DNA of 64,000 bases from positions 1-64,000 of the forward strand of contig JAPLGM010000029.1 in assembly GCA_026390165.1 (NCBI GenBank). Reading direction: 5' to 3'. Shown here piece after piece: positions 16,820 through 49,099 of the stretch (position 1 is the first letter of the stretch; each line of letters opens with the position of its first letter). The DNA comes from Campylobacterales bacterium. Its GTDB lineage: Bacteria; Campylobacterota; Campylobacteria; Campylobacterales; Sulfurimonadaceae. The notes below the pieces were generated by a model that had not been told where the DNA came from, did not search any database, and was given only the letters and a program-made list of their open reading frames with translations. The position numbers and the translations under genes are program-made.

Positions 16820-17800
16820 TTACTCCAATGCCGTTAAAATTTCACTAAAAGCACTTTTAAATGCCTCTAATCCTTCATGTATTTGCCCTTCAATCACACG
16901 CTCCATCTCCACACCTGCATCTTTGACTTTTTGCTTATGAATTTCAATCTTTTCACCAAAGAGGGGGAGTTTTATCGTTTTATCCCCACGCGCAACATAC
17001 GCATTAATGGTGGCAATTGGTGCCGTATTGACGCTGTTGCTAGCTAGCAATTCATCAATATAATAGGATGCTCTAAAATCGTCTCCCTTAACCCCAGTAC
17101 TTGCAAAAAGGACGCGACACTTCGGTACACTCAACGCTTCTACTTGGGTATAAATCTCCGCTGCATTCATAATCCCCATCAACCCTGATTCAACACCCGA
17201 CGATTGCAATTGTGCATCAATTTCACGATCGATACGACTGACGAAAATGCTAATCACTGTATCGACGGGTTCACTATTTTTGGAAGCATTAGTAAAAGCA
17301 TTCGCACACTGTAGTGCTTGCTCACTTGAAAAAATGAGGGTCGCATTTACGGGAATACCGCGAGAAGCCAACGCCTCCATTGCACCGTATCCCGCTGGCG
17401 TTGCAGGAACTTTAATCATCACATTCGGGCGATTAATCGTTTCAAACAAACGTATCCCCTCCTGCGTCGTTGCCTGTGTATCATCACATAAAAATGGATC
17501 AACTTCAATACTCACATATCCATCATCCCCGACATTGTACAAAGGACGCAAAATATCAGCCGCTTTTTGAATATCGAAGATCGCAACGGCTTCATACTTC
17601 TCTTTGGGGGAGAGATGGGAAAGGGTAGAGAGTTGCTCTGTATAGGCACTGGAGGTGAGAATCGCATTTTTAAAAATAGCAGGATTGGAGGTGGCACCAG
17701 TAATAATCCCCTGCGCTACGAGTTCTTTAAACCCCTCATCCAAAAAAGTACGTTCAATAAAATCAGCCCATAAAGAGAAGCGAGCGGTAGGAATATACAT
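16820..17800 (-). CDS. tal: Transaldolase
   Basis: Transaldolase moves a dihydroxyacetone unit between sugar phosphates in the non-oxidative pentose phosphate pathway. The 326-residue protein is an epsilonproteobacterial form. Visible are SLWADFIERTFLDEG, the GATSNPAIF segment near residue 37, VSIEVDPFLCDD, the Schiff-base Lys in NVMIKVPATPAGYGAM near residue 132, NATLIFS, and the SIFVSRIDREID segment. A -10 element lies at 17832-17837. The order tal-(pilT)-rplY-pth resembles H. pylori apart from the inserted pilT. Confidence 0.93.
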   Translation of the reverse strand: MYIPTARFSLWADFIERTFLDEGFKELVAQGIITGATSNPAIFKNAILTSSAYTEQLSTLSHLSPKEKYEAVAIFDIQKAADILRPLYNVGDDGYVSIEVDPFLCDDTQATTQEGIRLFETINRPNVMIKVPATPAGYGAMEALASRGIPVNATLIFSSEQALQCANAFTNASKNSEPVDTVISIFVSRIDREIDAQLQSSGVESGLMGIMNAAEIYTQVEALSVPKCRVLFASTGVKGDDFRASYYIDELLASNSVNTAPIATINAYVARGDKTIKLPLFGEKIEIHKQKVKDAGVEMERVIEGQIHEGLEAFKSAFSEILTALE

Positions 17801-17831
17801 AGTTTTAACTCCAAAGCATTAAAGTGCAGTG

Positions 17832-17837
17832 ATTATG
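17832..17837 (-). promoter_or_regulatory. -10 promoter element for tal-pilT
   Basis: On the minus strand this reads CATAAT within TTTTTTTGGCATAATC, an extended -10 with a T-tract just upstream. It lies 32 bp before the tal ATG and just after the stop of the Lnb-like gene. T-rich tracts upstream of the -10 are typical of Campylobacterota promoters. Confidence 0.5.
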
Positions 17838-17848
17838 CCAAAAAAAGT

Positions 17849-19648
17849 TTAAAAATAGCAATTCACCCCTGCTCTCATCCGATCATCATTGATATATTGG
17901 TGGTTCAGTTCAAGAGTACCAAAAAAACTCACAGAGGAATTAACTTGCCATTGATGGGAAAACATCCCATGTATCCGATGCGGGGCATCCACATACACCA
18001 TTTCTCCCATTTCAAGGAGCGTCTTCATCCGATTTCCCCAATTGATCGCACCCCCTGCACTCAATCCGATCCCTATATCGCTCTTGAAGCCCACTCGAAC
18101 CTCTGGCTCACTGAGTAAATACCCATACCATCTGTCATTACCAATTGCACTTCCCGCTCCAATACGGGTCACAAAGCTTAATTGATCCACTCCATACTCT
18201 CTGTCCCACCCCGCCCTCATACGCCACGAAAAAGGTTTAAAAAATTGGCTCACAGGGGTGATCGATGAGAGGGATAATATCGTTAAGCGCTCAAGACTCA
18301 CTTTCTCATTCTCAATTCCAACCAATGTATCGAGGAATTCAATTTGCGCACCACTAAGTTGCCCCGTATCGTCTTCGCTCAAATCATGCAATGCAGGTCG
18401 CCAACCTAAAAGAGTCGGGGAACGATTTGCTAACCACCCTTTCGCCAACTCAAACCTAGCAGCATGATGGGCACTATCGGGATTGGATTTTGAATCAATG
18501 GCAAGTAGTTCACCTTGCCCTAACGAAGCTCTTTGACTTAGTAAATTATGATAACGTACGGCATAAACCTCTTTGGTCAATTTGCCTTGAATGTAATCGT
18601 ATTCGATGAGTTCCGCTGCCGCTTCAAGTACATAGCGCCGTTGTGATCTACTAAGATTATCATCAAAAACCACTGTATCACCCTGTGCCAATGATTTTAC
18701 TGTTTGAATTGCTTGCGGATTTAATTTCCGTTCGTACGCCAAAAGCTTCGTCCGCTTAGAGGGGCGATAGTGTTTCTCACCCACTAATTGCTCCTCTTCA
18801 AAAGCTCTTACCGTTTCGGGGGGGATGACATAATAGCTAAAATGATCCCGTAAATGGACACGTGCACGTGCAACCTCAGCAAGCCATAACATATTATAAG
18901 AGCAATTTTCATCCAAAAAATAGTACCACGATGAAATCCGCTGTAACTCCCAAATATGACGCACCATCGCCATCACTTCATCGTGGGTAAGATTAAGATC
19001 ATACTCCCACACATCACGCGATTCGCTGTCACGGTACTCTTTGAGCTTTTCATAATAGGGGAGCATCGAGTAAAATCCGCTATAACCGCCAAAAAGCCCT
19101 TTGTAGGCGAACGATACCCCATTCGTCTCATCCGTTTGGGCAGCATAATTGATGGCGTACGACATCAGCTTGCTCTCCATCGACGAATCAATCCGTAAAA
19201 ATGTATGCCCGAACATTGATGCGGGGGAGTTAATATGAGCACTGGGAAAAACAAGGGTCACTTTTTGGGGATCCATTTTTTCTAATAGAGATGCATATTC
19301 GGTACATTCTCCCTCACCGAACGTCGTATTAAGCTCGCTTTCCAACCATCCTCGACGCGCTGGGAAACGGCAGAATACACTCTCATTACTGCGATTGGTA
19401 TCCTCATTCAACCTTCGAATTATTGTCTCTAATTCACTACTTAGATTGCTTTTTCCATCGGGTGCCAAGAAAAAAGTTTCATCATCAATTTCACTCTCAT
19501 TATAGGGCGCGTGCATCAGTAAATGCCAATAACGGCTTTGGGAAAGTTTGAGAGAGCGGGCTTGTGTAATCAGTTCATCCGTCGATGTTGCATGAACGGC
19601 TAAACTCATGACACACAGTAAAAAGAAAAGGGGCAAAAAAGACCTCAA
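17849..19648 (-). CDS. Lnb-like/DUF4105 periplasmic domain protein
   Basis: This 599-residue exported protein has a signal peptide at 1-20 (cleavage near AVHA). The Lnb N-terminal periplasmic domain (DUF4105) lies at about 120-290 and shows LVFPSAHINSPASMFGHTFLRID, SYAINYAA and LDENCSYNMLWLAEVA. The His and Cys in these segments are conserved in the family and suggest a papain-like/NlpC-type fold; this is an inference. The region after 400 is rich in alternating aromatic residues and ends MRAGVNCYF, resembling a small outer-membrane beta-barrel. The start is a TTG, because a stop lies just upstream in frame and the signal peptide follows directly. A stable hairpin lies 5 bp before the start. 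Confidence 0.8.
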   Translation of the reverse strand: MRSFLPLFFLLCVMSLAVHATSTDELITQARSLKLSQSRYWHLLMHAPYNESEIDDETFFLAPDGKSNLSSELETIIRRLNEDTNRSNESVFCRFPARRGWLESELNTTFGEGECTEYASLLEKMDPQKVTLVFPSAHINSPASMFGHTFLRIDSSMESKLMSYAINYAAQTDETNGVSFAYKGLFGGYSGFYSMLPYYEKLKEYRDSESRDVWEYDLNLTHDEVMAMVRHIWELQRISSWYYFLDENCSYNMLWLAEVARARVHLRDHFSYYVIPPETVRAFEEEQLVGEKHYRPSKRTKLLAYERKLNPQAIQTVKSLAQGDTVVFDDNLSRSQRRYVLEAAAELIEYDYIQGKLTKEVYAVRYHNLLSQRASLGQGELLAIDSKSNPDSAHHAARFELAKGWLANRSPTLLGWRPALHDLSEDDTGQLSGAQIEFLDTLVGIENEKVSLERLTILSLSSITPVSQFFKPFSWRMRAGWDREYGVDQLSFVTRIGAGSAIGNDRWYGYLLSEPEVRVGFKSDIGIGLSAGGAINWGNRMKTLLEMGEMVYVDAPHRIHGMFSHQWQVNSSVSFFGTLELNHQYINDDRMRAGVNCYF

Positions 19649-19653
19649 TATAG

Positions 19654-19680
19654 CTCAGAACGCATAGAATACGTTCCGAG
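19654..19680 (-). terminator. Hairpin between the DUF3015 gene and the Lnb-like gene
   Basis: The 9-bp stem CTCGGAACG/CGTTCTGAG (one G-U pair) has a 9-nt loop. It lies just after the DUF3015 stop and 5 bp before the TTG start of the next gene. The T-run that follows on the minus strand is inside that gene's second to fourth codons (12 nt later), so it may act as an attenuator or as an mRNA-end or processing structure rather than a simple terminator. Confidence 0.5.
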
Positions 19681-19687
19681 AAAGTAA

Positions 19688-20134
19688 TTAACCTGCAATG
19701 GTCGAAACGTTATCCAAAACGGTCGCCATATCCGCTTTTTCAGTCGTATAAATTGCGTTATAATTTGCTTGAAGTGCGGATGCAAATTCTGCTTTGTTTG
19801 CAACATTCAAAAGCTCTGCCAATGTTGAAACACTTTCACCTTGACCGATAGCAATTTCACGAGAGAGCTGATCCATATTGGAAGCGACAAACTCCGCTGC
19901 ACGTTCATTCATTACAAATTTGGCTTTTTTACACCCTGATGTCCCTGACGTGATTCCAAAAGTTTGGTTTGCAGAGGTACCGTTTGTTGTTGCTTGAAGT
20001 GCCAACATCACCGCTGAACTGTCGTCATGAATAATTTGTGAACCTAGACCACACCCTGTTTGATTATTAACCGTTGCAAAACCTGCTGTGGCAAGGGTTG
20101 CTACTGCTACTATACTGATTAAAACTTTTTTCAT
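19688..20134 (-). CDS. DUF3015 family exported protein
   Basis: This 148-residue protein has a clear signal peptide (MKKVLISIVAVATLATAGFA), so it is periplasmic. The mature part has the family features: NNQTGCGLGSQII with the first conserved Cys, LQATTNGTSANQTFGITSGTSGC with the second, then a helical C-terminal half (VASNMDQLSREIAIGQGESVSTLAELL). Two Cys may form a disulfide. The function of DUF3015 proteins is not known. It has its own promoter-like -10 box at 20166-20171 and a strong AAGGGG ribosome-binding site. Confidence 0.85.
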   Translation of the reverse strand: MKKVLISIVAVATLATAGFATVNNQTGCGLGSQIIHDDSSAVMLALQATTNGTSANQTFGITSGTSGCKKAKFVMNERAAEFVASNMDQLSREIAIGQGESVSTLAELLNVANKAEFASALQANYNAIYTTEKADMATVLDNVSTIAG

Positions 20135-20165
20135 CGTGACCCCTTTTATGTGAAATTTATGATTT

Positions 20166-20171
20166 AGTATA
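20166..20171 (-). promoter_or_regulatory. -10 promoter element for the DUF3015 gene
   Basis: On the minus strand this reads TATACT inside TTTTATACTAAAT, 32 bp before the ATG of the DUF3015 gene. Confidence 0.5.
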
Positions 20172-20205
20172 AAAGAGATCCCCTTAAGAGTTTCTTTCTT
20201 TATCT

Positions 20206-21696
20206 TTAAAAAAGTTCAAAATCATTATCAGAACTTTCTACGCTTTTAAACTCATCCGATAACGCCAACTCTATTTGCAAACACGTACTAAAAAGAGACG
20301 TATCAATATAATGGATATCTAATGCACTTTGAGCAATGAATATATTGTTATTCCAGCTTGCAAGATCATCTTTAATACTACGAATCAATAAACAAAGTTT
20401 ATTCAACATTTTCATATCAATTTTAGTGGTATCAATCGATATTAATAACATTTTAAGAGAACGAATAGCATATGCCAAATCGTCAAACTCAAATAATAAC
20501 CCAATTTTACGTGCATATATTTCAAACGCATCCGCAATCGTTATAAGCATTGCAAAATTACTATCAGATTGAAGCTCATCAATAGCACTCTCCAAATCTC
20601 TGTCAATTTCTTGAAGTTCCTGTAGTTCTTGTAATACTTCATCATCAAGTTCTTGGACATACACGTGTGCCGTTGTTTTAATTTTGTGCGATCGGCGCAA
20701 AACTTCTCTCTCTTCATCATTAATAAAACGCGTAGATGCTATATCCAAATCGTTTACAACTTCTATTGATTTTAAAGATTGACCTTTTGATACAGAAGAA
20801 GTAACAGGAGGAACAAATGAATAGCGACGCTTTTTGATGATGAACTCTTCGAGTATTTCCGTATAATTTTTAATTTTAACTTTTTGATACTCTTCCCATG
20901 TAACGTCGTTAAAAGTAATCATAACACTTATACTGTCGTTGCCATCGAGTTCCAATTCACGCATCATAATGCGATAAATTTTTCGCCCCTTCAAACGTGT
21001 TATGGAAATTTTGTTCATGGAGGGGTCATTACGATTATACGCATCAAGACTGGGGAGAAATCCAACCCTTTTATCGAAAAAACTATCCAATGAGACTCTA
21101 TTTTCGAGTAACATCTCCAAATTGGTTCGTTGAAACAACTCAATAAATGGCTGATTGACATAGCGGATGGTTTGATTCGTATAGATAATGCAGGGATTTG
21201 GAAATGCATTAGTGATTTGGGTCATCACCTGTTCAGACATTTTATTAATTTTATCTTGGACTTTTCGTTGCTCCAGCTCTTCTAATTTTTTTCTATTTTC
21301 TAAAAGCAAGGCTATTTTATAAAAAGCCTCTTTCGCTTGCTCTGCTTGAATCGGTTTTAATAAATACTGATCCACTTTTAATTCGATGGATGAAAGAAAA
21401 TAGTCCGAGTCGCTAAAGGCCGTAGTAATAATAACGGGAATCTCAGGTGATTTGACTCTTATTACCCGTATCATTTCTAAACCATTCATATTTGGCATCT
21501 GTATGTCAGTAATAATGATATCAGTGGGATGTTCATTAAACAAATCCAATCCCATTTTTCCATCTGATGCAACAAGAACGTGTTTAAAAAACAGCTTCAA
21601 AATTGAAACTATATTTTTTCGAATACTCTCCTCATCTTCAACATATAAAACAGTATAGCCACTTGTAACTTTCTGAATCTCTTTTAAAATTAACAT
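20206..21696 (-). CDS. Response regulator with PAS-like domain (REC-PAS-helical output)
   Basis: This 496-residue cytoplasmic signalling protein begins with a receiver domain (residues ~12-130). Acidic pocket E20-D21-E22, phosphoacceptor D64 in IIITDIQMP and the Lys of LLKPIQ are all present. A PAS-like domain follows a short coiled coil, at about 160-270 (NAFPNPCIIYTNQTIRYVNQPF, later MITFNDVT). The rest (275-496) is helical and acidic without a DNA-binding or enzymatic motif I recognise. It ends 509 bases before the internal features of no other gene and starts 11 bp after the GGDEF/EAL regulator stops, so the two are probably co-transcribed. The output mechanism is unknown. Confidence 0.8.
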   Translation of the reverse strand: MLILKEIQKVTSGYTVLYVEDEESIRKNIVSILKLFFKHVLVASDGKMGLDLFNEHPTDIIITDIQMPNMNGLEMIRVIRVKSPEIPVIITTAFSDSDYFLSSIELKVDQYLLKPIQAEQAKEAFYKIALLLENRKKLEELEQRKVQDKINKMSEQVMTQITNAFPNPCIIYTNQTIRYVNQPFIELFQRTNLEMLLENRVSLDSFFDKRVGFLPSLDAYNRNDPSMNKISITRLKGRKIYRIMMRELELDGNDSISVMITFNDVTWEEYQKVKIKNYTEILEEFIIKKRRYSFVPPVTSSVSKGQSLKSIEVVNDLDIASTRFINDEEREVLRRSHKIKTTAHVYVQELDDEVLQELQELQEIDRDLESAIDELQSDSNFAMLITIADAFEIYARKIGLLFEFDDLAYAIRSLKMLLISIDTTKIDMKMLNKLCLLIRSIKDDLASWNNNIFIAQSALDIHYIDTSLFSTCLQIELALSDEFKSVESSDNDFELF

Positions 21697-21707
21697 TTAA
21701 ACCTCTT

Positions 21708-23390
21708 TTAGCAGTAAGATTTTGGTTCACCAAAATAATACCCTTGGGTATAATCGATATCAAGTTCAAGAACTTTTTCATAAACAGCTCGACTATGGAC
21801 AAACTCTGCTATAACTTTCGCACCGATACTCTTCGCAAAATTGGTAATGCTCTGCGCTATTTTATAACTGTTCTCATCCGTATCAATAAACTTAATAAAA
21901 GTACCGTCGATTTTAATATAATCAACTTGAAGCCGATGAACACGCTCGAAATTTGAATTTTGCGTCCCAAAATCATCAATAGCCAATTGAAATCCTATCA
22001 ATTTCAGATCATTAAGCTGGTTGAGATTGGATTCAGTGGCGTAGGTACTCACCCCTTCCAGCACTTCTAAAATAACCCGATTGGGATCAATCGCGTATTT
22101 TTGTGCCGATTCTTTTAAAAAATCAATCAGATAACCATCATTGAGATCAGGCTCACTAATATTAATCGAAAAGCTAAAAGGCTTATCCCTAAAAAATAAA
22201 AAACTTTTTTCAATCATAATACGGGTGATACTGGGGAGCATTCCACTCACTTCTGCTGCTTTAATGAAGAAAGCGGGAAGGATAACATGCCCATTATCGC
22301 CTACAATCCGTGCTAAACACTCATATTTCTCAATCTCTTCCGTTTTATTATTGATAATTTGGTGAAAATAAGGGGTAATTTGATCCTCATTAAGTGCATC
22401 AAAAAGGAGTGGAATGTGACGTTGTATCTCTTTTTGATACGATTCAAAGCGTGAGTCAGGATCATAGGTTTTAATGCGGTTTTTCCCCAATAACCTTGCC
22501 TCTTTAAGGGCAAGATGGGCATTTTTCAAAAGATCAAAGCCCCCTTGAGCAATAGCGATAGTTGCCGTGAATCTAACTGAAATTTTTCCATCTTTAATGG
22601 GGAAAGTCGCAATTTTATTTTGAAGTTCTTCGGCAAATGATTGAACCTCCGGCAAACTCCCTTCACGCCAAAGAAATGCAAATTCATCATGCCCAAAACG
22701 AAAAACATTGACGTCTGGTGGGCTATTTAGTTGAAGAAAATTAGCAATATTATAGAGAATAACATCTCCGCTGCTATAGCCATAACTAATGTTTATATTA
22801 TCGAAATTATCAATATTTAATAGAAGTAAAATCTTATTATCCTCTACTTTTACCATATTATTAAATTTATGACGATTATACAATCCCGTCAATGTATCAA
22901 TATTGGCTAGTTTTTGTAATTCATTTGTTTTCTTTTTTACTTCATTTTCAAGACGAGTGTAATACTCACTAACTATTTTTTTGGCCTCTATCATATTTGC
23001 CAGTTTTCGTAAAACATCTTTCATCTGTTCAACTTCAATGGGCTTCATGATAAAGCCATCAACCCCCACCCGTATCGCTGGCAATAAATATTCACTCTCA
23101 TTATGGGCAGAGATCAGAACTACTTGTTGAAAAGGATTTTTATTTTTTATTTTTTCGGCAAGTTCAATTCCATTCATCTTGGGCATATTAATATCGGTAA
23201 AAACAATATCATACACCACTCTTTCGTATTCATTCCATCCCTCTTCTCCATCTTGGGCAATAACAACATTTGCGAATAATAGGCTAAAGACTTGACTTAC
23301 TTGTCTTCTTGATGCTTCATCGTCCTCAATATAGAGAACAGTTAAATCTTTTGTTTGTTCTTTAAGAACTAAAACTGATTCCATCCCCAT
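21708..23390 (-). CDS. Response regulator with GGDEF and EAL domains
   Basis: This 560-residue REC-GGDEF-EAL protein is of the cyclic-di-GMP signalling class. The receiver (~15-135) has E22-D23-D24, D66 in FTDINMP and the Lys of IMKPIE. The GGDEF domain (~165-315) starts DTLTGLYNRHKFNN, but its active-site loop reads FGHDEF instead of GGDEF, so diguanylate cyclase activity is doubtful. The EAL domain (~325-558) reads ECLAR for EALLR and keeps NINIS, the Glu of LEVLEG, DDFGT, YIKIDG, IAEF and QGYYFGEP, so phosphodiesterase activity remains possible. A start two codons later (ATG at 23384) is also plausible. It is divergent from the histidine kinase at 23535 across a 144-bp shared promoter region. 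Confidence 0.9.
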   Translation of the reverse strand: MGMESVLVLKEQTKDLTVLYIEDDEASRRQVSQVFSLLFANVVIAQDGEEGWNEYERVVYDIVFTDINMPKMNGIELAEKIKNKNPFQQVVLISAHNESEYLLPAIRVGVDGFIMKPIEVEQMKDVLRKLANMIEAKKIVSEYYTRLENEVKKKTNELQKLANIDTLTGLYNRHKFNNMVKVEDNKILLLLNIDNFDNINISYGYSSGDVILYNIANFLQLNSPPDVNVFRFGHDEFAFLWREGSLPEVQSFAEELQNKIATFPIKDGKISVRFTATIAIAQGGFDLLKNAHLALKEARLLGKNRIKTYDPDSRFESYQKEIQRHIPLLFDALNEDQITPYFHQIINNKTEEIEKYECLARIVGDNGHVILPAFFIKAAEVSGMLPSITRIMIEKSFLFFRDKPFSFSINISEPDLNDGYLIDFLKESAQKYAIDPNRVILEVLEGVSTYATESNLNQLNDLKLIGFQLAIDDFGTQNSNFERVHRLQVDYIKIDGTFIKFIDTDENSYKIAQSITNFAKSIGAKVIAEFVHSRAVYEKVLELDIDYTQGYYFGEPKSYC

Positions 23391-23534
23391 CCTTTATGCC
23401 GTTACTATGGATAACTTAATATTAGATATTGTAGCGTCTCTTTCAAAAATGTTTCTTAAAGTTATTAATTGTAATATATTACTTTGGAAATGCACTATTA
23501 TTACTGCCTAAAATAAAAAGAAGAGGGAGATAAA

Positions 23535-24833
23535 ATGATTAAATCACTAAAATATTTAAATACCCTCTGTTCTTCACGCTTCACCAAATTCACCTACGCT
23601 GTTGTGTTACTAACATCATTATTTGGAGTAGTACATCTCATTCATAGCAATTTTGTGAATGCCCTTATCGATTTAAGTATAGCTCTTCTCTCCCTTATAA
23701 ATCTAAAAGTACCAAATTCTTATCATACGTGTTTGCATAAAATAAATGTTTTTAACTTTATTGGAGCCTCTCTATTAATTTACCTCCTTTTTTCAGGGGG
23801 GACAGCTCGCACCGGATGGTTATGGATTCTTATGTATCCCGCATTTGTTTTTCTCCTTGACTCTAAAAAAAGAGGAGTACGATGGATACTCTCATTTGCC
23901 GTTATAATCCTCCTCTCCAATCTTCTCCAGTATATGCAGTGGATCGAAACTGCCTACAATCATACAGAGCTTTCTATCCTCTTTATTGTGTACGGATTAA
24001 CGGCTTATTTGCTTTATTTATTTAAAAAAGAGATTACCTACTATGTTGATCAGATCAAATCGCTTAATAGTGTATTGGAAAGAAGGGTAGCATCTGAAAT
24101 AGAAAAGAACCGAAAAAAAGATAAACTGCTAAACAATCAAGCCAAGCAAGCACAGATGGGGGAGATGATCTCAATGATAGCTCACCAATGGCGACAACCG
24201 CTCAATGCCATCAGTGCCGCCTCTATCAATCTAAATTTTCAAAGTAAACTGGAGTTGCTCAACGAGCAAACCATTCAAGAGATAACTCAATTTATCCAAA
24301 ATAAAACGAAAGAGATGTCAGAGGTGATTGATACCTTTGTAGAATTTATCAAACCTGATCATCAAAGTAAAGATTTTTTCCCTCTCGAAGCTATTCATAA
24401 AACATTAAGTATTATAAGCTCTCAACTTTCTAATCATAATATCACCATCGAGGTCACTCATACGGAAGCGTTTATGACCTATAGGCTTAATGGAGTTATT
24501 AATTTATTGGAACAAATACTATTAAATCTGCTCATTAATTCACGCGATGCTTTCAATGAACATCCCGATATAAAAGAGAGAAAAATCACTCTCTTTGGTG
24601 ATGAAAACGGCAAGATCATTTTTGAAGACAACGCAGGGGGGATCACGAAAGAGATTCAGGAAAAGGTATTCAATCCCTATTTTACAACTAAAGAGGTGGG
24701 GAAAGGGACAGGATTGGGACTTTATATGGCTCTCAAGATTATGAGAGACCATTTTGGAGGGGATTTAACCTACAAACCAACGGAGGGTGGAAGCCGTTTT
24801 ATTTTGACATTCGTCAATGATTTGAAATCGTAG
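23535..24833 (+). CDS. Membrane-bound sensor histidine kinase
   Basis: This 432-residue kinase has five or six predicted membrane helices in the first ~170 residues (for example FTYAVVLLTSLFGVVHLI, IGASLLIYLLF and LFIVYGLTAYLLYLF). A coiled coil at 175-205 leads to the H-box with H217 in MIAHQWRQPLNAIS. The C-terminal HATPase domain has the N-box LLNLLINSRDAF, G1 EDNAGGI, and G2 GKGTGLGLYMALKIM. No separate periplasmic sensor is visible, so it may sense through the membrane domain. A strong AGAGGGAG Shine-Dalgarno site precedes the ATG. The gene leads the plus-strand signalling operon, and its H-box and ATPase closely resemble those of the next gene. Confidence 0.92.
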   Translation: MIKSLKYLNTLCSSRFTKFTYAVVLLTSLFGVVHLIHSNFVNALIDLSIALLSLINLKVPNSYHTCLHKINVFNFIGASLLIYLLFSGGTARTGWLWILMYPAFVFLLDSKKRGVRWILSFAVIILLSNLLQYMQWIETAYNHTELSILFIVYGLTAYLLYLFKKEITYYVDQIKSLNSVLERRVASEIEKNRKKDKLLNNQAKQAQMGEMISMIAHQWRQPLNAISAASINLNFQSKLELLNEQTIQEITQFIQNKTKEMSEVIDTFVEFIKPDHQSKDFFPLEAIHKTLSIISSQLSNHNITIEVTHTEAFMTYRLNGVINLLEQILLNLLINSRDAFNEHPDIKERKITLFGDENGKIIFEDNAGGITKEIQEKVFNPYFTTKEVGKGTGLGLYMALKIMRDHFGGDLTYKPTEGGSRFILTFVNDLKS

Positions 24834-24845
24834 AGGAGACTATTG

Positions 24846-26825
24846 ATGTTTACACTCAATCACAATTATCACGATGATGCTACACTTGAGGGATGGTTGG
24901 ATGAAAATAGTTTTGCAAAGAAACAAGAATGCCTTGTACAATTTTTTTGTGGTCAAATCAAAAAAAGTACAATGGAACACATTGCCTCGCTATTGGCAAA
25001 AGAACTCCCTTTAGCACATATAATAGGTTCAACTAGCGATGGGGAGATTATCGGGAATAGAGTTTTAACTGAATCAATCGTCATAAGTTGCAGTGTATTT
25101 GAGCAAAGTAGACTCCACTCGGCAAAAAAGAACTATAATGGAGATTCATATACCCTTGGAAGAGAGATTTGTACCGAACTCGATAATGAAGAGATTAAAG
25201 CAATTATTTTTTTTACGGCAGGGTTAGATTTAAACGGTGAAGAGTTTTTAAACGGTGTCCGAAGTGTTTCAGGAGATAGATATATCATCGCTGGGGGGGT
25301 AGCAGGAGATAATGCCCAGTTCACCGGTACATACGTTGCTCACCGCGACACAATTCTCGACTATGGGTGCGTTGGAATCGCTCTTTGTGGATCACAATTG
25401 CATGCTATAAATCAATACCATCTTGGATTGAAGGCAGTGGGATTGCCCATGAAGGTGACGAGAGCCCAAGGGAACCGTGTTTATGAAATAAACCATCACT
25501 CTGCGGTATCGATTTACGAAAAATATCTAAGCAAACCCATTGCAAATCAGCTTCCTAAAATCGGATTGGAGTTTCCGCTCATCATTGAGCGCCATGGTAT
25601 TAAGCTAGCACGCGCCTGTCTCAAGAGACTCGACGATGATTCATTAATCTTTGCTGGAAACATTGCGGTAGGAGAGATGGTCCGTTTTGGTGTGGGGGAT
25701 ATGTATACGATTCTCGAAGAGAGCAAAGAGGTATGTAACCATACCCAAAAGAATTTTCACCCAGAGAGTATATTTGTCTATTCGTGTATGGCGAGAAGAC
25801 GGCTCTTAAAAAATTCCTCTCCATTTGAGTTAAAAAATCTCTCTATGCAGTGTACGATTAATGGATTTTACACCTATGGTGAATTCTTTTCTGATAAAAA
25901 TGACAACTATATGATGAGCGAAAGCATGACCCTTTTGGGATTAAGCGAATCGTCCACAAACGATATTGACCCTGTCAATAGACTTTTGGAGGAAAAGGAT
26001 CCTCGCTCACCCAATATTGTGGCACAAGCTCTGACGTATATGATAAACGTCGTTAGCAAGGAGTGGGAAGAGCGATTAAACGAAGAGATAGCGAAAAACA
26101 GGGAAATAGAGAGAATCGATTTTCAAAATACTAAACTGATTCAGATGGGAGAGCTGGTGAGTATGATAGCGCACCAATGGCGACAACCGCTGAACGCATT
26201 GAGTGCTGCCGCTATCAACATGTCACTCCTCTCCAGCATGGGAAAACTTGAATTACAACAGGTTCAAGAAAGCAGCCGTTTTATTCAAGAACAGTGTCAA
26301 AAGATGTCACAAACTATCGATACCTTTATCAATTTTGTAAAACCGGCAAAAGAGAGTCAATCATTTACTTTACAACATACGATAGAAGCAATAATGCAAA
26401 TTATCGGGAGTCAGATGAGCAGCCATAACATTGACATAACAATGCAACAACTCGATGAGACCATTTCTATAGATGGCTATGAGGATTTGCTCGAACAAGT
26501 GCTGTTAAATCTTATATCCAATACGAAAGATGCCTTTGATAATCAGAGCATAGTGGAAAGAAAGCTAACCATTACTGTCACTATAAAAGAGGGGATTCCA
26601 CGAATTATTATGGAAGACAATGCGGGGGGGATACCAGTAGATGCACGTGAAAAGATATTCAACCCCTATTTTACGACCAAATCACCCGGAAAAGGGACGG
26701 GGATCGGTCTATATATGAGCATCAACATTATGCGCAAAAGTTTTAATGGCGACTTGCTCTACACCCCCCTACCCAACGGAAGTCGGTTCGAGCTTATTTT
26801 AGGGCAACAAAAAAAGGGAAAATAA
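24846..26825 (+). CDS. FIST-domain histidine kinase
   Basis: This 659-residue cytoplasmic kinase has a FIST N domain at about 20-215 (with IIGSTSDGEIIG, FFTAGLDLNGEEFLNGV and AGGVAGDNAQF) and a FIST C domain at about 220-375 (ending in FVYSCMARRRLL and GFYTYGEFF). FIST domains are proposed to bind small ligands such as amino acids. A coiled coil at 400-430 leads to the H-box with H443 in MIAHQWRQPLNALS, then N-box LLNLISNTKDAF, EDNAGGIP and GKGTGIGLYMSINIM. I use the ATG at 24846, because GAGGAG lies 8 nt upstream; a TTG just before it is the alternative. No membrane segment is seen. It follows the membrane kinase by 12 bp and precedes a response regulator by 2 bp. Confidence 0.92.
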   Translation: MFTLNHNYHDDATLEGWLDENSFAKKQECLVQFFCGQIKKSTMEHIASLLAKELPLAHIIGSTSDGEIIGNRVLTESIVISCSVFEQSRLHSAKKNYNGDSYTLGREICTELDNEEIKAIIFFTAGLDLNGEEFLNGVRSVSGDRYIIAGGVAGDNAQFTGTYVAHRDTILDYGCVGIALCGSQLHAINQYHLGLKAVGLPMKVTRAQGNRVYEINHHSAVSIYEKYLSKPIANQLPKIGLEFPLIIERHGIKLARACLKRLDDDSLIFAGNIAVGEMVRFGVGDMYTILEESKEVCNHTQKNFHPESIFVYSCMARRRLLKNSSPFELKNLSMQCTINGFYTYGEFFSDKNDNYMMSESMTLLGLSESSTNDIDPVNRLLEEKDPRSPNIVAQALTYMINVVSKEWEERLNEEIAKNREIERIDFQNTKLIQMGELVSMIAHQWRQPLNALSAAAINMSLLSSMGKLELQQVQESSRFIQEQCQKMSQTIDTFINFVKPAKESQSFTLQHTIEAIMQIIGSQMSSHNIDITMQQLDETISIDGYEDLLEQVLLNLISNTKDAFDNQSIVERKLTITVTIKEGIPRIIMEDNAGGIPVDAREKIFNPYFTTKSPGKGTGIGLYMSINIMRKSFNGDLLYTPLPNGSRFELILGQQKKGK

Positions 26826-26827
26826 TT

Positions 26828-28453
26828 ATGGGACAAGAACTTGAGCTCAGAAATATTACACGTAATCTTTCGCTTCTGTATGTAGAGGATAATGATTCAA
26901 TACTGCAGGAGTTCGCAAAAATCTTCGAACTCTTTTTTAAAGAGGTGGTAACGGCGGATAATGGTCAAATCGCATTAGAAAAATATGCAAAACAAAAGTT
27001 TGATTTGGTAGTGACAGATTTAACGATGCCCGTCATGGATGGAATAACACTGATTCAAAAAATCTTAACGCAAAACCCCTCTCAGCATATTATCGTTATC
27101 ACTGCCCATAATACAGGAGAAGAACTCAAAGATTCTATTGAACATCATATCGATGGAATCTTGATGAAACCTGTCGATGTAGATCGACTATTGCAATTGT
27201 TTCTTAAAGTGTGTCGATCCATTGCTCTAGAGCATAAAGAGAGCTATATTTCTACCCAATCGCACACCTACGAGATTGTCGCTTCGTTTGAAAAAGAGAC
27301 TCATATCGTATCCATCGCTGTTATTGATGCATTTGATGAGATTGTAAAAGAGTTCGGCTATGAAACTAAAAACAACCTTCGAAAAGCGGTCGAAAAACAT
27401 CTTTCAGATTTTATCATCAATGAAGAAAACTGTTTGTGGAATAATGATGTTTTTATTTTTTTAGTACAAAGAGAAGAGTGCCGAAATATTTTTATTGCAT
27501 TGCAACGTTGGCTAGAAGAGCATAAAACATTATCGGTAGATATCAACAATTTGCCCTTTAGCGTTACTCTGTCGTATGGTATGATTGACTTTAACACAAA
27601 AAGTTGTGATTTAGAATGCAAGCATGATCACCTCTTTTTTCATATAAACACTATCGTTTCACAGATCCAAAAGAGTGGTCGAAATAGCTTTATCGTGAAT
27701 ATGGATATTGATTCGTGTAAAACATTTAAGGAAAATGCGCTTGAACGTCTCAATACGGCCTTGAATGCTTTAAAAGAGGGAAAAATAACCCCTTTTTACC
27801 AAGCCATTGTAGATATTGAGACTCTCGAAACCGTTTGCTACGAAGTATTTGCACGAATCGAAAACAATGGTCAATTGATTTTACCTGAATTATTTATTGG
27901 TCTAAGTGAAAAGGCAGGGGTATTACAACTGATATCCGAAAATATTTTTGAAAAAAGTTATGAAAAAATAGCGACAACAAAGTTTAATTTTCATATCAAT
28001 ATTACGGATGCTGTGAACCGAGACACTAATTTAGAAGAGTATTTACAATCACTCAATATCCGTTTTAATATCCCTTATGAGCGGGTGATTTTAAATATAA
28101 CGAATACTCCATCCATAAAACCGGATGGAATCATCCTTCATCGTCTTTTACGTCTCAAAGAGATTGGATATAAAATTGCGCTAAAAGAGTTTTGTAAAGA
28201 AGCCATTAGAATTGATACCCTATCATTGTTAAAGCCAGATCTTATTAAATTTGATCAAGAAATTGTCCAGAAAAGTTTAGTAAACAGTACCCTAAAAGAG
28301 ATTATTATTTTTATACTAAAATACACAAAACACGCTCATATAAAAAGTATCTTGGTGGGGGTTGAGAATGAAACTACCTTAAAAGAGGGGAGAGAACTTG
28401 GGTTTGACTATGTGCAAGGATATTATATTGGAATGCCCAAAGATACATTATAA
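26828..28453 (+). CDS. Response regulator with degenerate GGDEF-like and EAL domains
   Basis: This 541-residue protein is the likely partner of the two upstream kinases. The receiver (~12-130) is complete: E20-D21, D64 in VVTDLTMP, and Lys in LMKPVD. The middle (~150-300) has the length of a GGDEF domain but no GGDEF motif. The C-terminal EAL-like domain (~310-541) has lost its catalytic residues. EVFARI stands for EALLR, INITDAV for the NxS strand, VILNITN lacks the metal-binding Glu, and LKEFCKE replaces DDFGTG, although QGYYIGMP remains. It therefore probably works as a c-di-GMP- or protein-binding output rather than as a phosphodiesterase. The binding partner is unknown. Confidence 0.88.
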   Translation: MGQELELRNITRNLSLLYVEDNDSILQEFAKIFELFFKEVVTADNGQIALEKYAKQKFDLVVTDLTMPVMDGITLIQKILTQNPSQHIIVITAHNTGEELKDSIEHHIDGILMKPVDVDRLLQLFLKVCRSIALEHKESYISTQSHTYEIVASFEKETHIVSIAVIDAFDEIVKEFGYETKNNLRKAVEKHLSDFIINEENCLWNNDVFIFLVQREECRNIFIALQRWLEEHKTLSVDINNLPFSVTLSYGMIDFNTKSCDLECKHDHLFFHINTIVSQIQKSGRNSFIVNMDIDSCKTFKENALERLNTALNALKEGKITPFYQAIVDIETLETVCYEVFARIENNGQLILPELFIGLSEKAGVLQLISENIFEKSYEKIATTKFNFHINITDAVNRDTNLEEYLQSLNIRFNIPYERVILNITNTPSIKPDGIILHRLLRLKEIGYKIALKEFCKEAIRIDTLSLLKPDLIKFDQEIVQKSLVNSTLKEIIIFILKYTKHAHIKSILVGVENETTLKEGRELGFDYVQGYYIGMPKDTL

Positions 28454-28487
28454 CATCGATAATGACTTCGACAAACGAACGAATTGC

Positions 28488-29156
28488 TTACCTCCACCCC
28501 TCCACTGACACGTTATCATCTGAACAGCTCGCTAATTTTTCCAAAAAAGCCTCCCTCGAAACTTCGATAGCTCCCAAACTCTTCAAATGGGGGGTCGGTA
28601 CCTGACAATCGATAAAACGATAGCCCCACTCCCGTAAATGATCGACCAAAACAGCAAACGCCACTTTTGAAGCATCTGAAACTTTTGCAAACATCGACTC
28701 TCCGCAAAATACCGCTCCAACACTGACGCCATACAATCCTCCGACCAGTTCACCATTTTGATAGGCCTCAACACTGTGAGCGTATCCGAGAGCGTGCAAA
28801 GTTTCATACGCTTCAATCATTTCGGGGAGAATCCAGCTTCCTGCTTGTTTTCGTCGTGAGATTTGAGCACAGGCACGGATCACCGCTGAAAATGCACTGT
28901 CGAAACGGATCTCAAAATGAGATATTTTTTTACGCAGGGAGCGATGAAGTTTAAAATCTTCCAACTCTAAAATAAGACGAGGATCAGGTGACCACCATAA
29001 TATCGGATCACCCGCACTGTACCACGGGAAAATGCCGTTACGATACGCTAGCATGATGCGAGAGGGGCTTAAATCGCCCCCGTACGCCACAATCCCCTCA
29101 GGGGAAGCACTTTTGGGAGAGGGGAAAGAGAGGTGGTGAGAGAGACGTGGGATCAT
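28488..29156 (-). CDS. aat: Leucyl/phenylalanyl-tRNA-protein transferase
   Basis: Aat adds Leu or Phe to proteins with N-terminal Lys or Arg, marking them for ClpS/ClpAP degradation. The 222-residue protein has the family signatures FPSPKSASPEGIVAYGGDLSPSRIMLAYRNGIFPWY, PILWWSPDPRLIL, GSWILPEMIEAYETLHALGYAHSVE, LVGGLYGVSVGAVFCGESMF and the FIDCQVPTPHLKSLGA segment. It starts 3 bp after clpA ends, and the clpS-clpA-aat order puts the whole N-degron pathway in one operon, as in C. jejuni. Confidence 0.97.
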   Translation of the reverse strand: MIPRLSHHLSFPSPKSASPEGIVAYGGDLSPSRIMLAYRNGIFPWYSAGDPILWWSPDPRLILELEDFKLHRSLRKKISHFEIRFDSAFSAVIRACAQISRRKQAGSWILPEMIEAYETLHALGYAHSVEAYQNGELVGGLYGVSVGAVFCGESMFAKVSDASKVAFAVLVDHLREWGYRFIDCQVPTPHLKSLGAIEVSREAFLEKLASCSDDNVSVEGWR

Positions 29157-29159
29157 TCG

Positions 29160-31337
29160 TTACGCGTACTCAAAAATAAGGGTATCGGTATAATCAACCG
29201 CTACTTTTCCGCCGTTTGTCAGTTGTCCAAACAGCACCTCATCGACCAATGGGTCTTTAATCTTCTCTTGTATAATACGGCCCAGAGGTCGCGCCCCCAT
29301 TGCTTTGTCGTAGCCCATCTGCGCGAGATACCCTTTGGCTTTTTCGGTGAGGGTAACCGACACTTTTTTAGCTTTCAGCTGCCCATTGAGTTCGTCCATA
29401 AATTTATCAACAATCTTCTCAACTACCTCCATCGGTAATGCCCCAAACTCAACGACTGCATCAAGACGGTTGCGAAATTCAGGGGTAAAAAATGATTTTA
29501 ACGCTTCATGTCGTGAAATAGAGCTGTCAGCATTGAACCCCATGACCGTCCGCTCACTGGCACCGATGTTTGAGGTCATAATGAGGACAACATTGCTAAA
29601 GTTGGCTTTGTATCCATTGTTATCGGTCAAGGTTGCGTTGTCCATCACTTGAAGGAGGATATTTACTAAATCGGGGTGTGCTTTTTCGATCTCATCGAGT
29701 AGCAATACCGTATAAGGGTGCTTTCGGATGCACTCACTGAGCAATCCCCCCTGCTCAAACCCTACATATCCGGGAGGGGCACCGATGAGACGGCTAAGGG
29801 CGTGTTTTTCCATGTATTCGGACATATCAAACCGCTCGAAATGAATCCCCATTGACTCGGCAAGTGATTTGGCAAGCTCTGTTTTTCCCACCCCAGTAGG
29901 ACCCGAAAACAAAAAGGATGCGATGGGTTTATGGGGTGCAGAGAGTCCTGCGTAGGAGCGCTTGATCGAGCGAACCACTTTTTCGATGGCGTTATCTTGT
30001 CCGATAACAAGAGATTTCAACTCCTCTTCTAACCCTGCTAATTTTTCACGATCATCACCACTAATTTTTGAGAGAGGAACTCCCGTCATTTTTGCAATAA
30101 TACTCTCAATATCGTTCGGGGTAACGGTTGTACGCTTATGATGGTACAGATGAAAGGATGCCCCCGCTTCATCGATCAAATCAATCGCCACATCGGGTAA
30201 GAATCGGTCGGTAATAAATTTTTTAGAGAGTTCAACGGCACTGCGCAACGTTTTATCCGTATATTTCACCCCGTGATGTTTCTCATACCTCTCCCGTAGC
30301 CCTTTGAGAATTAAAAAACTCTCTTCTTGGGAAGGTTCCCCTACGTCGATACGGGCGAATCGACGGCTTAATGCACGATCTTTTTCAAATACCGAACGAT
30401 ATTCGGCGTGTGTTGTTGCCCCCATACATTTGAGGCTCCCCGAAGCAAGGGCTGGTTTGAGCTGATTGGAGGCATCCATACTTCCGCCCCCTACCGCGCC
30501 TGCCCCCACGATGGTATGGATTTCGTCAATAAATAAAATGGCATTGGGGTGTGCTTGCACTTCATCAATGACCGCTTTGAGCCGTTTTTCAAAATCACCG
30601 CGATACTTCGTCCCTGCCAACATCGCCCCTAAATCAAGGGCAAAAAGTTCGGCATTCTCTAGCAATTTCGGCACATCCCCCGCGACAATCCGTAACGCCA
30701 ACCCCTCGGCAATGGCTGTTTTACCCACCCCCGGCTCACCTATGAGCAGTGGGTTGTTTTTCTTGCGACGGCAAAGAGTTTGGATAGCACGCTCTATCTC
30801 ATTGACCCGCCCGATAACGGGATCGATTTTCCCTTTTTTGACTTGCTCTATGAGATTGATCGCGTATTTCTCTAAAGCACTATCATTCTCTTGATTTTGC
30901 GCTGGCGGTTCAACATCTTTGTGCGAAATCGCTTCGAGTATATCCACACGGCTAATTCCGTACTCTTCAAGCAACATACACGCGTAGGTGTGGTGCTCTT
31001 CATAAAGGGCTGCAATAAAATCCCCCACATCGGCATGCTGTTTTTGAGCACTTTTGACATGAAGCATCATCCCATCGATAAGACGCGACAACGCTACTGT
31101 TTCGTAAGGTTCTTGGTTAAGCCCTTGGGGGAGCGGTTCGAGAGAATGGATCAAATAATTCCCCAACGCCTCCCGAATAGTCTCTACCTCTATCCCACAT
31201 GATTTTATGATTGCTGATCCATCAGGGGAGTTGAGCAAGGAAAGCATAACATGCTCAATCGTGAGATACTCGTGACGCTGATGGCGCGCCAAGGCGACCG
31301 CTTTTTGGAAAATAGAGTTAAGTTCTGCACTTATCAT
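29160..31337 (-). CDS. clpA: ATP-dependent Clp protease ATP-binding subunit ClpA
   Basis: ClpA unfolds substrates and feeds them to ClpP. The 725-residue protein has an N-domain (~1-140, which docks ClpS) and two AAA+ modules. D1 has Walker A GEPGVGKTA near 205 and Walker B LFIDEIHTIVGAG. D2 has Walker A GPTGVGKTEL near 475 and Walker B VLLLDEIEKAHPD. There is no long ClpB-type middle coiled coil. The D2 small domain contains a ClpP-docking type loop. The gene overlaps clpS by 4 bp. It is slightly shorter than E. coli ClpA (758). Confidence 0.97.
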   Translation of the reverse strand: MISAELNSIFQKAVALARHQRHEYLTIEHVMLSLLNSPDGSAIIKSCGIEVETIREALGNYLIHSLEPLPQGLNQEPYETVALSRLIDGMMLHVKSAQKQHADVGDFIAALYEEHHTYACMLLEEYGISRVDILEAISHKDVEPPAQNQENDSALEKYAINLIEQVKKGKIDPVIGRVNEIERAIQTLCRRKKNNPLLIGEPGVGKTAIAEGLALRIVAGDVPKLLENAELFALDLGAMLAGTKYRGDFEKRLKAVIDEVQAHPNAILFIDEIHTIVGAGAVGGGSMDASNQLKPALASGSLKCMGATTHAEYRSVFEKDRALSRRFARIDVGEPSQEESFLILKGLRERYEKHHGVKYTDKTLRSAVELSKKFITDRFLPDVAIDLIDEAGASFHLYHHKRTTVTPNDIESIIAKMTGVPLSKISGDDREKLAGLEEELKSLVIGQDNAIEKVVRSIKRSYAGLSAPHKPIASFLFSGPTGVGKTELAKSLAESMGIHFERFDMSEYMEKHALSRLIGAPPGYVGFEQGGLLSECIRKHPYTVLLLDEIEKAHPDLVNILLQVMDNATLTDNNGYKANFSNVVLIMTSNIGASERTVMGFNADSSISRHEALKSFFTPEFRNRLDAVVEFGALPMEVVEKIVDKFMDELNGQLKAKKVSVTLTEKAKGYLAQMGYDKAMGARPLGRIIQEKIKDPLVDEVLFGQLTNGGKVAVDYTDTLIFEYA

Positions 31338-31636
31338 GACGTCTCCTCCATAATTGCTTTTAACGGAAACCCGCTTTCTCGTGAGAGGGAACCAACTTGA
31401 TGAATTTTTGTTTCCGCAATTTCATACGAATAGGTTCCGCACAACCCACGCCCCCCTTGATGCACCTGCATCATAATCTGGTGCGCTTGAGCATAATCTT
31501 TATGAAAAATCCCGATCAAAATATCGATCACAAAATCCATTGACGTGTAATCGTCGTTTAGTAAATAGACATGATATTTTTTCGGCTCTCGAAGATCCAA
31601 AGAATACTCGAGGCTATGTTTCGTTTTTGTACTCAA
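31334..31636 (-). CDS. clpS: ATP-dependent Clp protease adaptor ClpS
   Basis: ClpS delivers N-degron proteins to ClpA. The 100-residue protein has an unstructured N-terminal tail followed by the core YHVYLLNDDYTSMDFVIDIL, in which the NDD..TM.FV pattern forms the N-degron pocket and Met here covers hydrophobic N-termini. HQGGRGLCGTYSYEIAETKIHQV follows. It is the first gene of clpS-clpA-aat, and its ATGA junction with clpA suggests coupled translation. Confidence 0.96.
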   Translation of the reverse strand: MSTKTKHSLEYSLDLREPKKYHVYLLNDDYTSMDFVIDILIGIFHKDYAQAHQIMMQVHQGGRGLCGTYSYEIAETKIHQVGSLSRESGFPLKAIMEETS

Positions 31637-31702
31637 AATAATATCCCTAATTTTAAAAATACTCTAACAAGGGTTACGTATTATTTGGCTTAAAAGGGAG
31701 GA

Positions 31703-32935
31703 TTAACTTCGTGCACGCATAAAGTCGCTAATAATATCCTCAGGATTTTCAAGCCCAACAGAGATACGAACCAACCCTTCGGTGATCCCCAAAAACTCTC
31801 GCGTAGGGGCATCAAAATCGCGGTAAATCGTCGATCCCATATGCAGACCCAACGTTCGTGAATCTCCGATATTCGCGGTAATCGTGATCAGTTTTGAACA
31901 GTTCAAAAAAGCAAATGCCGCCTCCTTACTTCCCATATCAATAGTGAACAGTGTTCCGCAACCTTGAGAAAATTGTTCTTTATACCGCTCATGGTGAGGA
32001 TGCTCTACTAGTGAGGGGTGGTTGATACAAAAACCTGCGGCATCCAACGCAAGAACAATTTTCTCCACACTAGAGACGATACGATCCATCCGTAACGGCA
32101 ATGTTTCCAATCCTAACATCGTCAGATAGCTTCCAAAACCGTTCGCCGACATACCGAAATCACGTAATGCTCTCTTTTTAGCATTACCGATGAGTGCCAT
32201 TGCCCCCATTTTCTTTATAAACGGATGGAGTTCACTATAGCGCTGGGTTTTAAATTTATCTTCACCCTCTTTGATAGGACGAAAAACAACGGCTCCGCCA
32301 AGAGCGGACGCGTTCCCCGTAATAATTTTCGTCGTGGAGTAGACGACAATATCGGCACCCAGTTCGAGAGGTTTGATACTCAAAGGGGTTATCGTATTAT
32401 CCACCATCAGCACCACACCATGCGCCACAGCCATATCCGCGATTCGTTTAATATCCGGCAAGTGCATATTGGGATTTCCAACGCTCTCTAAAAAAAGGAG
32501 TTTGGTTTTATCGGTAATAGCCTCTTCGATTGCGCCCACTTCATCCACATCGAAAAATCGGGTGGTAATCCCAAAACGGGTCAATGTTTCAGAAAAATAA
32601 GAGTACGTCCCCCCGAACAATCCGCCGATACTGATAATCTCATCCCCTGCTTTGAGGAGGCTTAACGTCGCCATTGCCGTTGCCCCCATCCCTGAAGAGG
32701 TGGCAATTGCACCGATCCCCCCGTCCATCGCTGCCAAAATTGACTCCAGCTGTCCCGATGTCGGGTTCCCCATACGAGAATAGAGCGGTTTTTTCACCGA
32801 ACCATCAAAAATCCCCTCCCCCGTCTCACTGTCACCATACCCAAACGATGCCGAATTCACCAATACAGGGCTAATTGCCCCCTCTTTTTTTCCCACTTGC
32901 TGAACAAACTGTGTGGAAAATTCTTCAAAACGCAT
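31703..32935 (-). CDS. Cys/Met-metabolism PLP-dependent enzyme (O-acyl-homoserine sulfhydrylase/gamma-lyase type)
   Basis: This 410-residue fold-type I PLP enzyme of the trans-sulfuration family has SRMGNPTSGQLESILAAMDGG, ATSSGMGATAMATLSLLKAGDEII, the VDNTITPL strand with the PLP Asp, and the Schiff-base Lys in ADIVVYSTTKIITGNASALGG. TANIGDSRTLGLHMGSTIYRD (usually SLG..ESL..HPA) and GLVRISVGLENPEDI follow. In this family the exact reaction (O-acetyl- or O-succinylhomoserine sulfhydrylase, cystathionine gamma-synthase or methionine gamma-lyase) is hard to assign by sequence. The SGSSG-like and HPATTTH regions are altered here. It is transcribed alone, divergent from bioD. Confidence 0.85.
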   Translation of the reverse strand: MRFEEFSTQFVQQVGKKEGAISPVLVNSASFGYGDSETGEGIFDGSVKKPLYSRMGNPTSGQLESILAAMDGGIGAIATSSGMGATAMATLSLLKAGDEIISIGGLFGGTYSYFSETLTRFGITTRFFDVDEVGAIEEAITDKTKLLFLESVGNPNMHLPDIKRIADMAVAHGVVLMVDNTITPLSIKPLELGADIVVYSTTKIITGNASALGGAVVFRPIKEGEDKFKTQRYSELHPFIKKMGAMALIGNAKKRALRDFGMSANGFGSYLTMLGLETLPLRMDRIVSSVEKIVLALDAAGFCINHPSLVEHPHHERYKEQFSQGCGTLFTIDMGSKEAAFAFLNCSKLITITANIGDSRTLGLHMGSTIYRDFDAPTREFLGITEGLVRISVGLENPEDIISDFMRARS

Positions 32936-49098: not shown

Positions 49099-49099
49099 T

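Follow-up and report, generated by a model that had tools for sequence, protein, structure and literature searches.

The subject of this report is an island of five signalling genes at positions 20206–28453 of a 64,000-nucleotide stretch of Campylobacterales DNA (contig JAPLGM010000029.1 of assembly GCA_026390165.1, positions 1 to 64,000; hereafter the window), which belongs to a Sulfuricurvum genome. This genome is labelled G000 below, where G denotes genomes, L fetched loci, and C contigs. An earlier note, made from the sequence alone, had proposed a divergent five-gene island with a membrane kinase, a FIST kinase, and three receiver proteins, and all five open reading frames were confirmed exactly where it had placed them. 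The minus-strand arm consists of P2 (21708–23390) followed by P1 (20206–21696), and the plus-strand arm, separated from it by a divergent intergenic region of 144 bp (23391–23534), carries P3 (23535–24833), P4 (24843–26825), and P5 (26828–28453). Pfam analysis of the products revealed two kinases of the HisKA/HATPase_c type and three receiver (REC) domains, in agreement with the proposed set of proteins.

P3 encodes a membrane-sensor histidine kinase (sensor at amino acids (aa) 1–175, kinase at aa 202–424) with Pfam matches to HisKA and HATPase_c and to MASE6 below the cut-off, and P4 encodes a cytosolic histidine kinase, in which FIST_N and FIST_C (aa 31–349) precede the kinase part (aa 430–651; HATPase_c above and HisKA just below the cut-off). 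Four hydrophobic segments exceeded the cut-off in P3, all within the first 163 residues, versus none in P4. In regard to their catalytic parts, both kinases were strikingly similar, as the earlier note had stated: the H-box regions shared 75% identity, whereas 3739 kinase pairs had a median of 28%, with 144 at this value or higher, and the ATPase boxes were 85–89% identical versus 40–44% across kinase pairs. The kinase domains as a whole were 50% identical. In a tree of 60 rows, chosen from 89 kinase domains as best matches to P3 or P4, both fell into a clade of 12 rows with a support of 100/97.

Among 121 genomes of a family sample, strong matches to the membrane sensor of P3 were obtained in G000 and in a second Sulfuricurvum genome, G008, only, accompanied by weak matches in 14 further genomes (E 8e-11 to 7e-4). 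Six FIST matches were found in G000, P4 scored 58.2 bits against the NosP model NF041558 (cut-off 450), and a sequence search of solved structures with its FIST part gave no match. Other arrangements of FIST proteins were seen among the fetched loci. One locus (L173 6197–8642; G032:C8) harbored a separate FIST protein of 375 aa with a kinase of 438 aa directly after it, which comes nearer than P4 to the gene order of NosP and its kinase, and kinase-free FIST proteins of 666–676 aa adjoin FIST-kinases in G024 (L049 8622–10622) and G035 (L050 11787–13817).

Phospho-acceptor Asp and conserved Lys are kept in all three receivers, and a DNA-binding domain was not listed by Pfam for P1, P2, or P5. 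P2 displays a REC-GGDEF-EAL architecture (Response_reg, GGDEF, and EAL in Pfam) with the GGDEF motif in the form GHDEF. It keeps all ten EAL positions examined as catalytic or ligand-binding in EAL enzymes (E, N, E, E, D, D, K, D, E, Q), so that its sequence marks it as a probable cyclic di-GMP (c-di-GMP) phosphodiesterase. P5, with Response_reg and EAL in Pfam, revealed a degenerate GGDEF domain (NNDVF) and a degenerate EAL domain, five of the same ten positions being lost (E to N, E to N, D to K, D to E, E to V). The "decayed c-di-GMP domains" of the earlier note thus apply to P5 but neither to P2 nor to P1, which carries no such domain. The P5 ortholog in G008 displayed identical EAL losses, and the ratio of nonsynonymous to synonymous divergence (dN/dS) between G000 and G008 was about 0.17 for P1, 0.14 for P2, 0.17 for P3, and 0.13 for P5. 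Since this value for P5 resembles those of live neighboring genes (aat, about 0.10; an Lnb-type gene, about 0.13), the catalytically dead P5 is maintained by purifying selection.

P1 comprises a REC domain (aa 16–124; Response_reg, E 1e-24), a weak PAS-like region (aa 160–266; PAS_8 below the cut-off), and a C-terminal domain, which we call P1C (aa 319–496; window 20206–20742, minus strand). Its last 180 residues matched no Pfam family above the cut-off. For the P1C of the window, IFT43 was the sole Pfam match at E values up to 10, under its own cut-off, and Hpt was not among the best 25 of 42 families obtained for 41 P1C members. Altogether, 43 P1C domains were collected, 41 of which entered the larger of two alignments, the other comprising 39 proteins. 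Residues invariant in these 39 include L333, F404, W448, F453, H462, Y463, D465, S467, and Q474, and the domain is characterized by a conserved motif, DIHYxDxSxxSxxxQxE, and a tail of the DDLELF type. In the window this tail (20206–20250) was modelled with low confidence and is probably disordered, though homologs conserve its acidic DDLELF-like end; it is perhaps a short docking motif.

Based on alignments, an AlphaFold2 model, and VIA-align comparison, P1C is an all-helical domain without a family name. The model displays an all-helical bundle (predicted local distance difference test score 85, predicted template modelling score 0.77), for which VIA-align ranked CheA P1 structures first to sixth, namely 3kyj (Z 13.2, root-mean-square deviation 2.9, 126 residues aligned), 1i5n and 2lp4 (Z 12.6 each), 8c5v and 2ld6 (11.6 each), and 1tqg (11.0). 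A second model, computed for a P1C member of another sub-family from a smaller alignment without the clade of the window, also had CheA P1 at ranks one to five; nine of its ten alignment rows were among the 41 of the first model, so that both are not fully independent. Several results count against this likeness. Foldseek revealed no match to the model at E 0.001 or better, a Z near 13 may arise by chance or from a common arrangement in helical bundles, and hhalign of P1C against CheA P1 detected no sequence relation (local probability 1.2%, trivial global alignment). Since the Z value may be due to chance and hhalign gave 1.2%, we claim a resemblance of P1C to CheA P1, not membership.

We also considered whether P1C could be a phosphorylatable histidine phosphotransfer (HPt) domain, as an H-box-like stretch, RRSHKIKTTA (aa 334–343), might suggest. 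This was rejected, since the His is replaced by F, R, or other residues in many of the 39 proteins and since the stretch comes before the model region aligned to CheA P1. A relationship to CheA P1 at the sequence level was likewise dropped in view of the hhalign probability, and the likeness of the model fold alone was retained. In CheA P1, we take the phospho-His motif to be of the HxxKG type on helix B. As far as the hhalign register allows one to tell, the 39-protein alignment had no conserved His at the CheA phospho-His site, and the sole invariant His of P1C, H462, sits immediately ahead of the final helix in the model. In regard to a phosphatase of the CheZ type, no CheZ structure appeared among the VIA-align matches listed; the Pfam model for CheZ exceeded its cut-off in none of 41 Sulfuricurvum genomes and matched weakly in eight, so that for this genus it says little about whether CheZ is present or absent. 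A sequence search of solved structures with P1C gave a best E value of 1.9.

P1C is widespread, being detected in 47 of 248 genomes of an order sample, in 30 of the 41 of the genus, and in 12 of 150 sampled across the phylum, while a plasmid search gave no match. It lies downstream of a receiver in the same protein in 28 of 33 copies read, these being the distinct P1C genes in fetched loci of at least 9 kb, many of them picked from the order-sample matches regardless of context. Core che genes were found within 5 kb of 19 of these 33 genes versus 6 of 59 control receiver genes. The control loci had been retrieved largely because of kinase or FIST similarity, and the genomes behind the 33 P1C genes include related ones, which are not independent. 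A comparison of all 88 P1C places of the genus with 101 CheA places pointed in the same direction: 29 lay within 12 kb of CheA, where about 3.3 were expected under an assumed random placement, in a set where many genomes have short contigs and related genomes are not independent. This context supports a chemosensory role of P1C. G000 itself was found to encode six proteins with a CheA dimerization domain, and single-domain CheY-type proteins adjoin other P1C genes. Apart from that, weak P1C-like matches in frames of about 445–470 aa were observed about 4–5 kb from a CheA frame of roughly 930–950 aa in G027:C4, G033:C12, G038:C38, G018:C4, and G035:C13, which suggests that a second P1C family has diverged and belongs with another che cluster.

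Low in GC, the island is inserted between two flanking genes, a minus-strand gene at 28488–29156, which we take to be aat (leucyl/phenylalanyl-tRNA transferase), and a minus-strand gene for a DUF3015 protein (19688–20134). Its GC content is 0.36, compared to 0.43 and 0.46 in the flanks. These edges were defined on the basis of empty sites: aat was found in 37 of the 41 genomes of the genus, and among 30 aat loci read, the island was present in two (window and G008), while aat was directly followed by the DUF3015 gene in 13 and separated from it by under about 1.2 kb in three more. In the remaining loci, the neighbor of aat was a gene matching window 16820–17800 (seven loci), an Lnb-type gene (one), or another gene (four). 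No tRNA gene was found near the island, no convincing direct repeats at its edges, and no integrase among the neighboring reading frames looked at.

In G008 (Sulfuricurvum sp. isolate S02.Bin029, contig JAABPY010000169.1), P1, P2, P3, and P5 lie between these flanking genes too, arranged as in the window and with protein identities of 73–81%, but P5 follows directly after P3 and the FIST-kinase is absent. The unlinking of the genes in close relatives, which the earlier note had offered as a refutation, was therefore mostly not seen, four of five genes staying together in the same order. As synonymous divergence (dS) between both genomes was 0.71–0.90 for the island and thus inside the range of the flanks (0.45–1.04), the island was probably inherited vertically since before the split of G000 and G008. 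P4 has a GC content of 0.41, the other four genes 0.33–0.36, which favors a later gain of P4 over its loss in G008; the kinase tree does not decide between them.

Beyond these two genomes, a smaller core recurs. P1 and P2 were linked in all six genomes in which the pair was found, which likewise did not refute the earlier note, and in G001, G002, G015, and G030, they are adjacent and stand beside at least one of CheD, CheW, or a receptor. Kinases and P1 occur together as well: a P1-type gene accompanies 11 of the 12 kinases of the clade at their loci (two each in the window, G002, and G030, and one each in G008, G015 (L089), L091, L092, and L093), and the twelfth, G008:C131, had no P1C in the 20 kb read. 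When loci were chosen by kinase match to P4 alone (at least 40% identity), P1C was present in six of eight, the window included (G000, G002, G030, G008:C169, G015, and G001; negative were G008:C131 and G008:C162), compared to none of 16 loci with a kinase at 34–39% identity (L172–L187; Fisher p 2e-4), the latter having been selected by the analyst from a long match list. Based on the neighborhood of CheD, CheW, or a receptor in the four genomes named above, the P1-P2-kinase core was probably derived from a chemosensory operon.

Altogether, we read the island as an acquired, compact, branched two-component module of Roc-like plan, with a FIST input and with a phosphodiesterase and a chemosensory-type output, and we give this reading about an even chance of being right. 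The multi-input switch proposed in the earlier note fits this set, in which the kinase domains are closely related, the sensors differ, and three receivers have intact key residues. P3 would receive its input via the membrane sensor and P4 via the cytosolic FIST ligand domain. Judging from the similarity of the kinases and from the Roc system of Pseudomonas aeruginosa, in which all three regulators are activated by each of the paralogs RocS1 and RocS2 (PMC12051241), both kinases would probably share their receivers as phosphorylation targets. Phosphorylated P2 would then change c-di-GMP through its intact EAL domain; the direction of this change, like the identity of the signals, we infer. P5 would probably act as a binding or regulatory partner, sensing or buffering without catalysis, and phosphorylation of P1 would expose or hide P1C, which, modelled like CheA P1 but without a conserved phospho-His, would probably dock on a chemosensory kinase or receiver. 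A bolder extension, which we put forward tentatively and consider rather unlikely, makes P1C a receiver-controlled mimic of CheA P1 that is unphosphorylatable at the usual site, so that through it the sensor kinases would gate a chemosensory array, with CheA being occupied or CheY-type receivers titrated, and the island would couple this gate to c-di-GMP hydrolysis. Some observations count against the module as a whole. A single genome has the form with two kinases and G008 persists without P4, P1 of this island is not near che genes, and the smaller group of five rows that holds both P3 and P4 did not resolve in the kinase tree (support 90/73). Visible differences also exist among the three REC domains, so that the kinases may not treat these receivers alike.

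One alternative, in our view doubtful but deserving attention, is that two insulated pathways share the island, P3 serving the divergent P2/P1 operon (and P5) and the later-inserted P4 serving P5 only, whose dead domains would make it a sink or switch like NosR. P4 stands directly upstream of P5 with a gap of 2 bp, its GC content and its absence from G008 indicate a separate history, and NosR of Burkholderia pseudomallei likewise has a dead c-di-GMP domain according to the NosP literature. But P5 is present in G008 without P4 and thus already had another kinase, and the 75% identity of the H-box regions argues against insulation. Distinctly unlikely, to our judgement, is a lineage-specific expansion in which common kinase and REC-GGDEF-EAL genes accreted without joint function. 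G000 is indeed rich in such genes, with 24 matches to P4 and a similar cluster on contig C26 (L180 3707–10145; kinase, REC-GGDEF-EAL, REC-kinase, REC, and REC-GGDEF-EAL), and the FIST-kinases of the genus occur in several contexts, a REC-GGDEF-EAL gene being directly next at one of 12 loci (the window) and following after one more kinase at two of the 12. Arguments against mere accretion are that G008 keeps gene order and orientation at the protein identities given above and that P1 and P2 recur with kinases of the clade in G001, G002, G015, and G030. Compared to both alternatives, we prefer the branched module with shared receivers.

Within the divergent intergenic region, a block of 39 bp (23428–23466) is identical in G008 and is probably a shared control region. 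Its length is not unusual, since identical runs of 49 and 44 were seen in aligned coding parts of both genomes. Its 28-base core had no further copies at up to six mismatches in the fetched loci besides these two sites, and a search against Rfam gave no match in 17000–32000. Elsewhere in the window, GC content drops to 0.25–0.28 across a run of minus-strand reading frames (48001–54000), well under the rest of the window; this run is perhaps another acquired cluster.

If the proposed role of P1C holds, the chemotaxis array could be steered through a P1-shaped decoy by two-component kinases that are not part of it, and c-di-GMP and chemotaxis would be linked in Campylobacterota. P1C is directly testable, and the island with or without FIST-kinase offers a test case for adding a second input to an existing module. 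In a literature search that covered mostly journals outside subscription, no published description of P1C or of the island layout was found, nor any report combining FIST, histidine kinase, and EAL in epsilonproteobacteria, and a passage search of the Arcobacter butzleri genome paper (PMC2147049) gave no match to P1C.

The statement of the earlier note that it knew of no described system with this exact layout proved too strong as a claim of no precedent, since Roc (PMC12051241) and NosP-NahK-NarR (PMC12570481, PMC11237717) are close functional precedents. Like the island, Roc (RocS1/RocS2, RocA1, RocA2, RocR) combines two paralogous kinases with three regulators, one of them a REC-EAL phosphodiesterase, and a kinase-regulator operon diverges from another regulator; a RocR-like paralog with a doubtful EAL domain exists as well. 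By sequence, two paralogous kinases and an EAL-bearing one among three regulators are both present in the island. In contrast, the Roc kinases are described as unorthodox phosphorelay kinases at two loci, whereas the island has both of its kinases, of the simple HisKA type, at a single locus, and RocA1 and RocA2 are transcription factors, while the island regulators lack a recognized DNA-binding domain and one carries P1C. NosP is reported from operons with a kinase (NosK/NahK) and a c-di-GMP regulator (NosR/NarR; PMC12570481, PMC11237717), so that a FIST sensor is tied to a kinase and a c-di-GMP-type receiver there too, and P5 recalls the B. pseudomallei NosR in its dead output domain. Unlike in this pathway, FIST is fused to the kinase in one reading frame (P4) with the regulator P5 adjacent, P4 stays far below the NosP cut-off, and a second, membrane kinase is present. 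P2 resembles phosphodiesterases of the RocR/PvrR type in its REC and fully equipped EAL domains but adds a GGDEF domain of the GHDEF type. In the case of CheA P1 and HPt domains, any likeness lies in the AlphaFold2 models of P1C, which rank CheA P1 first, while P1C differs in that no sequence relation was detected, in lacking a Pfam Hpt match among the families listed and a conserved phospho-His, and in being fused to a receiver. As a system, the island is thus a variant of the branched two-component c-di-GMP module, most parts of which are ordinary, and P1C is the part worth a specialist's time.

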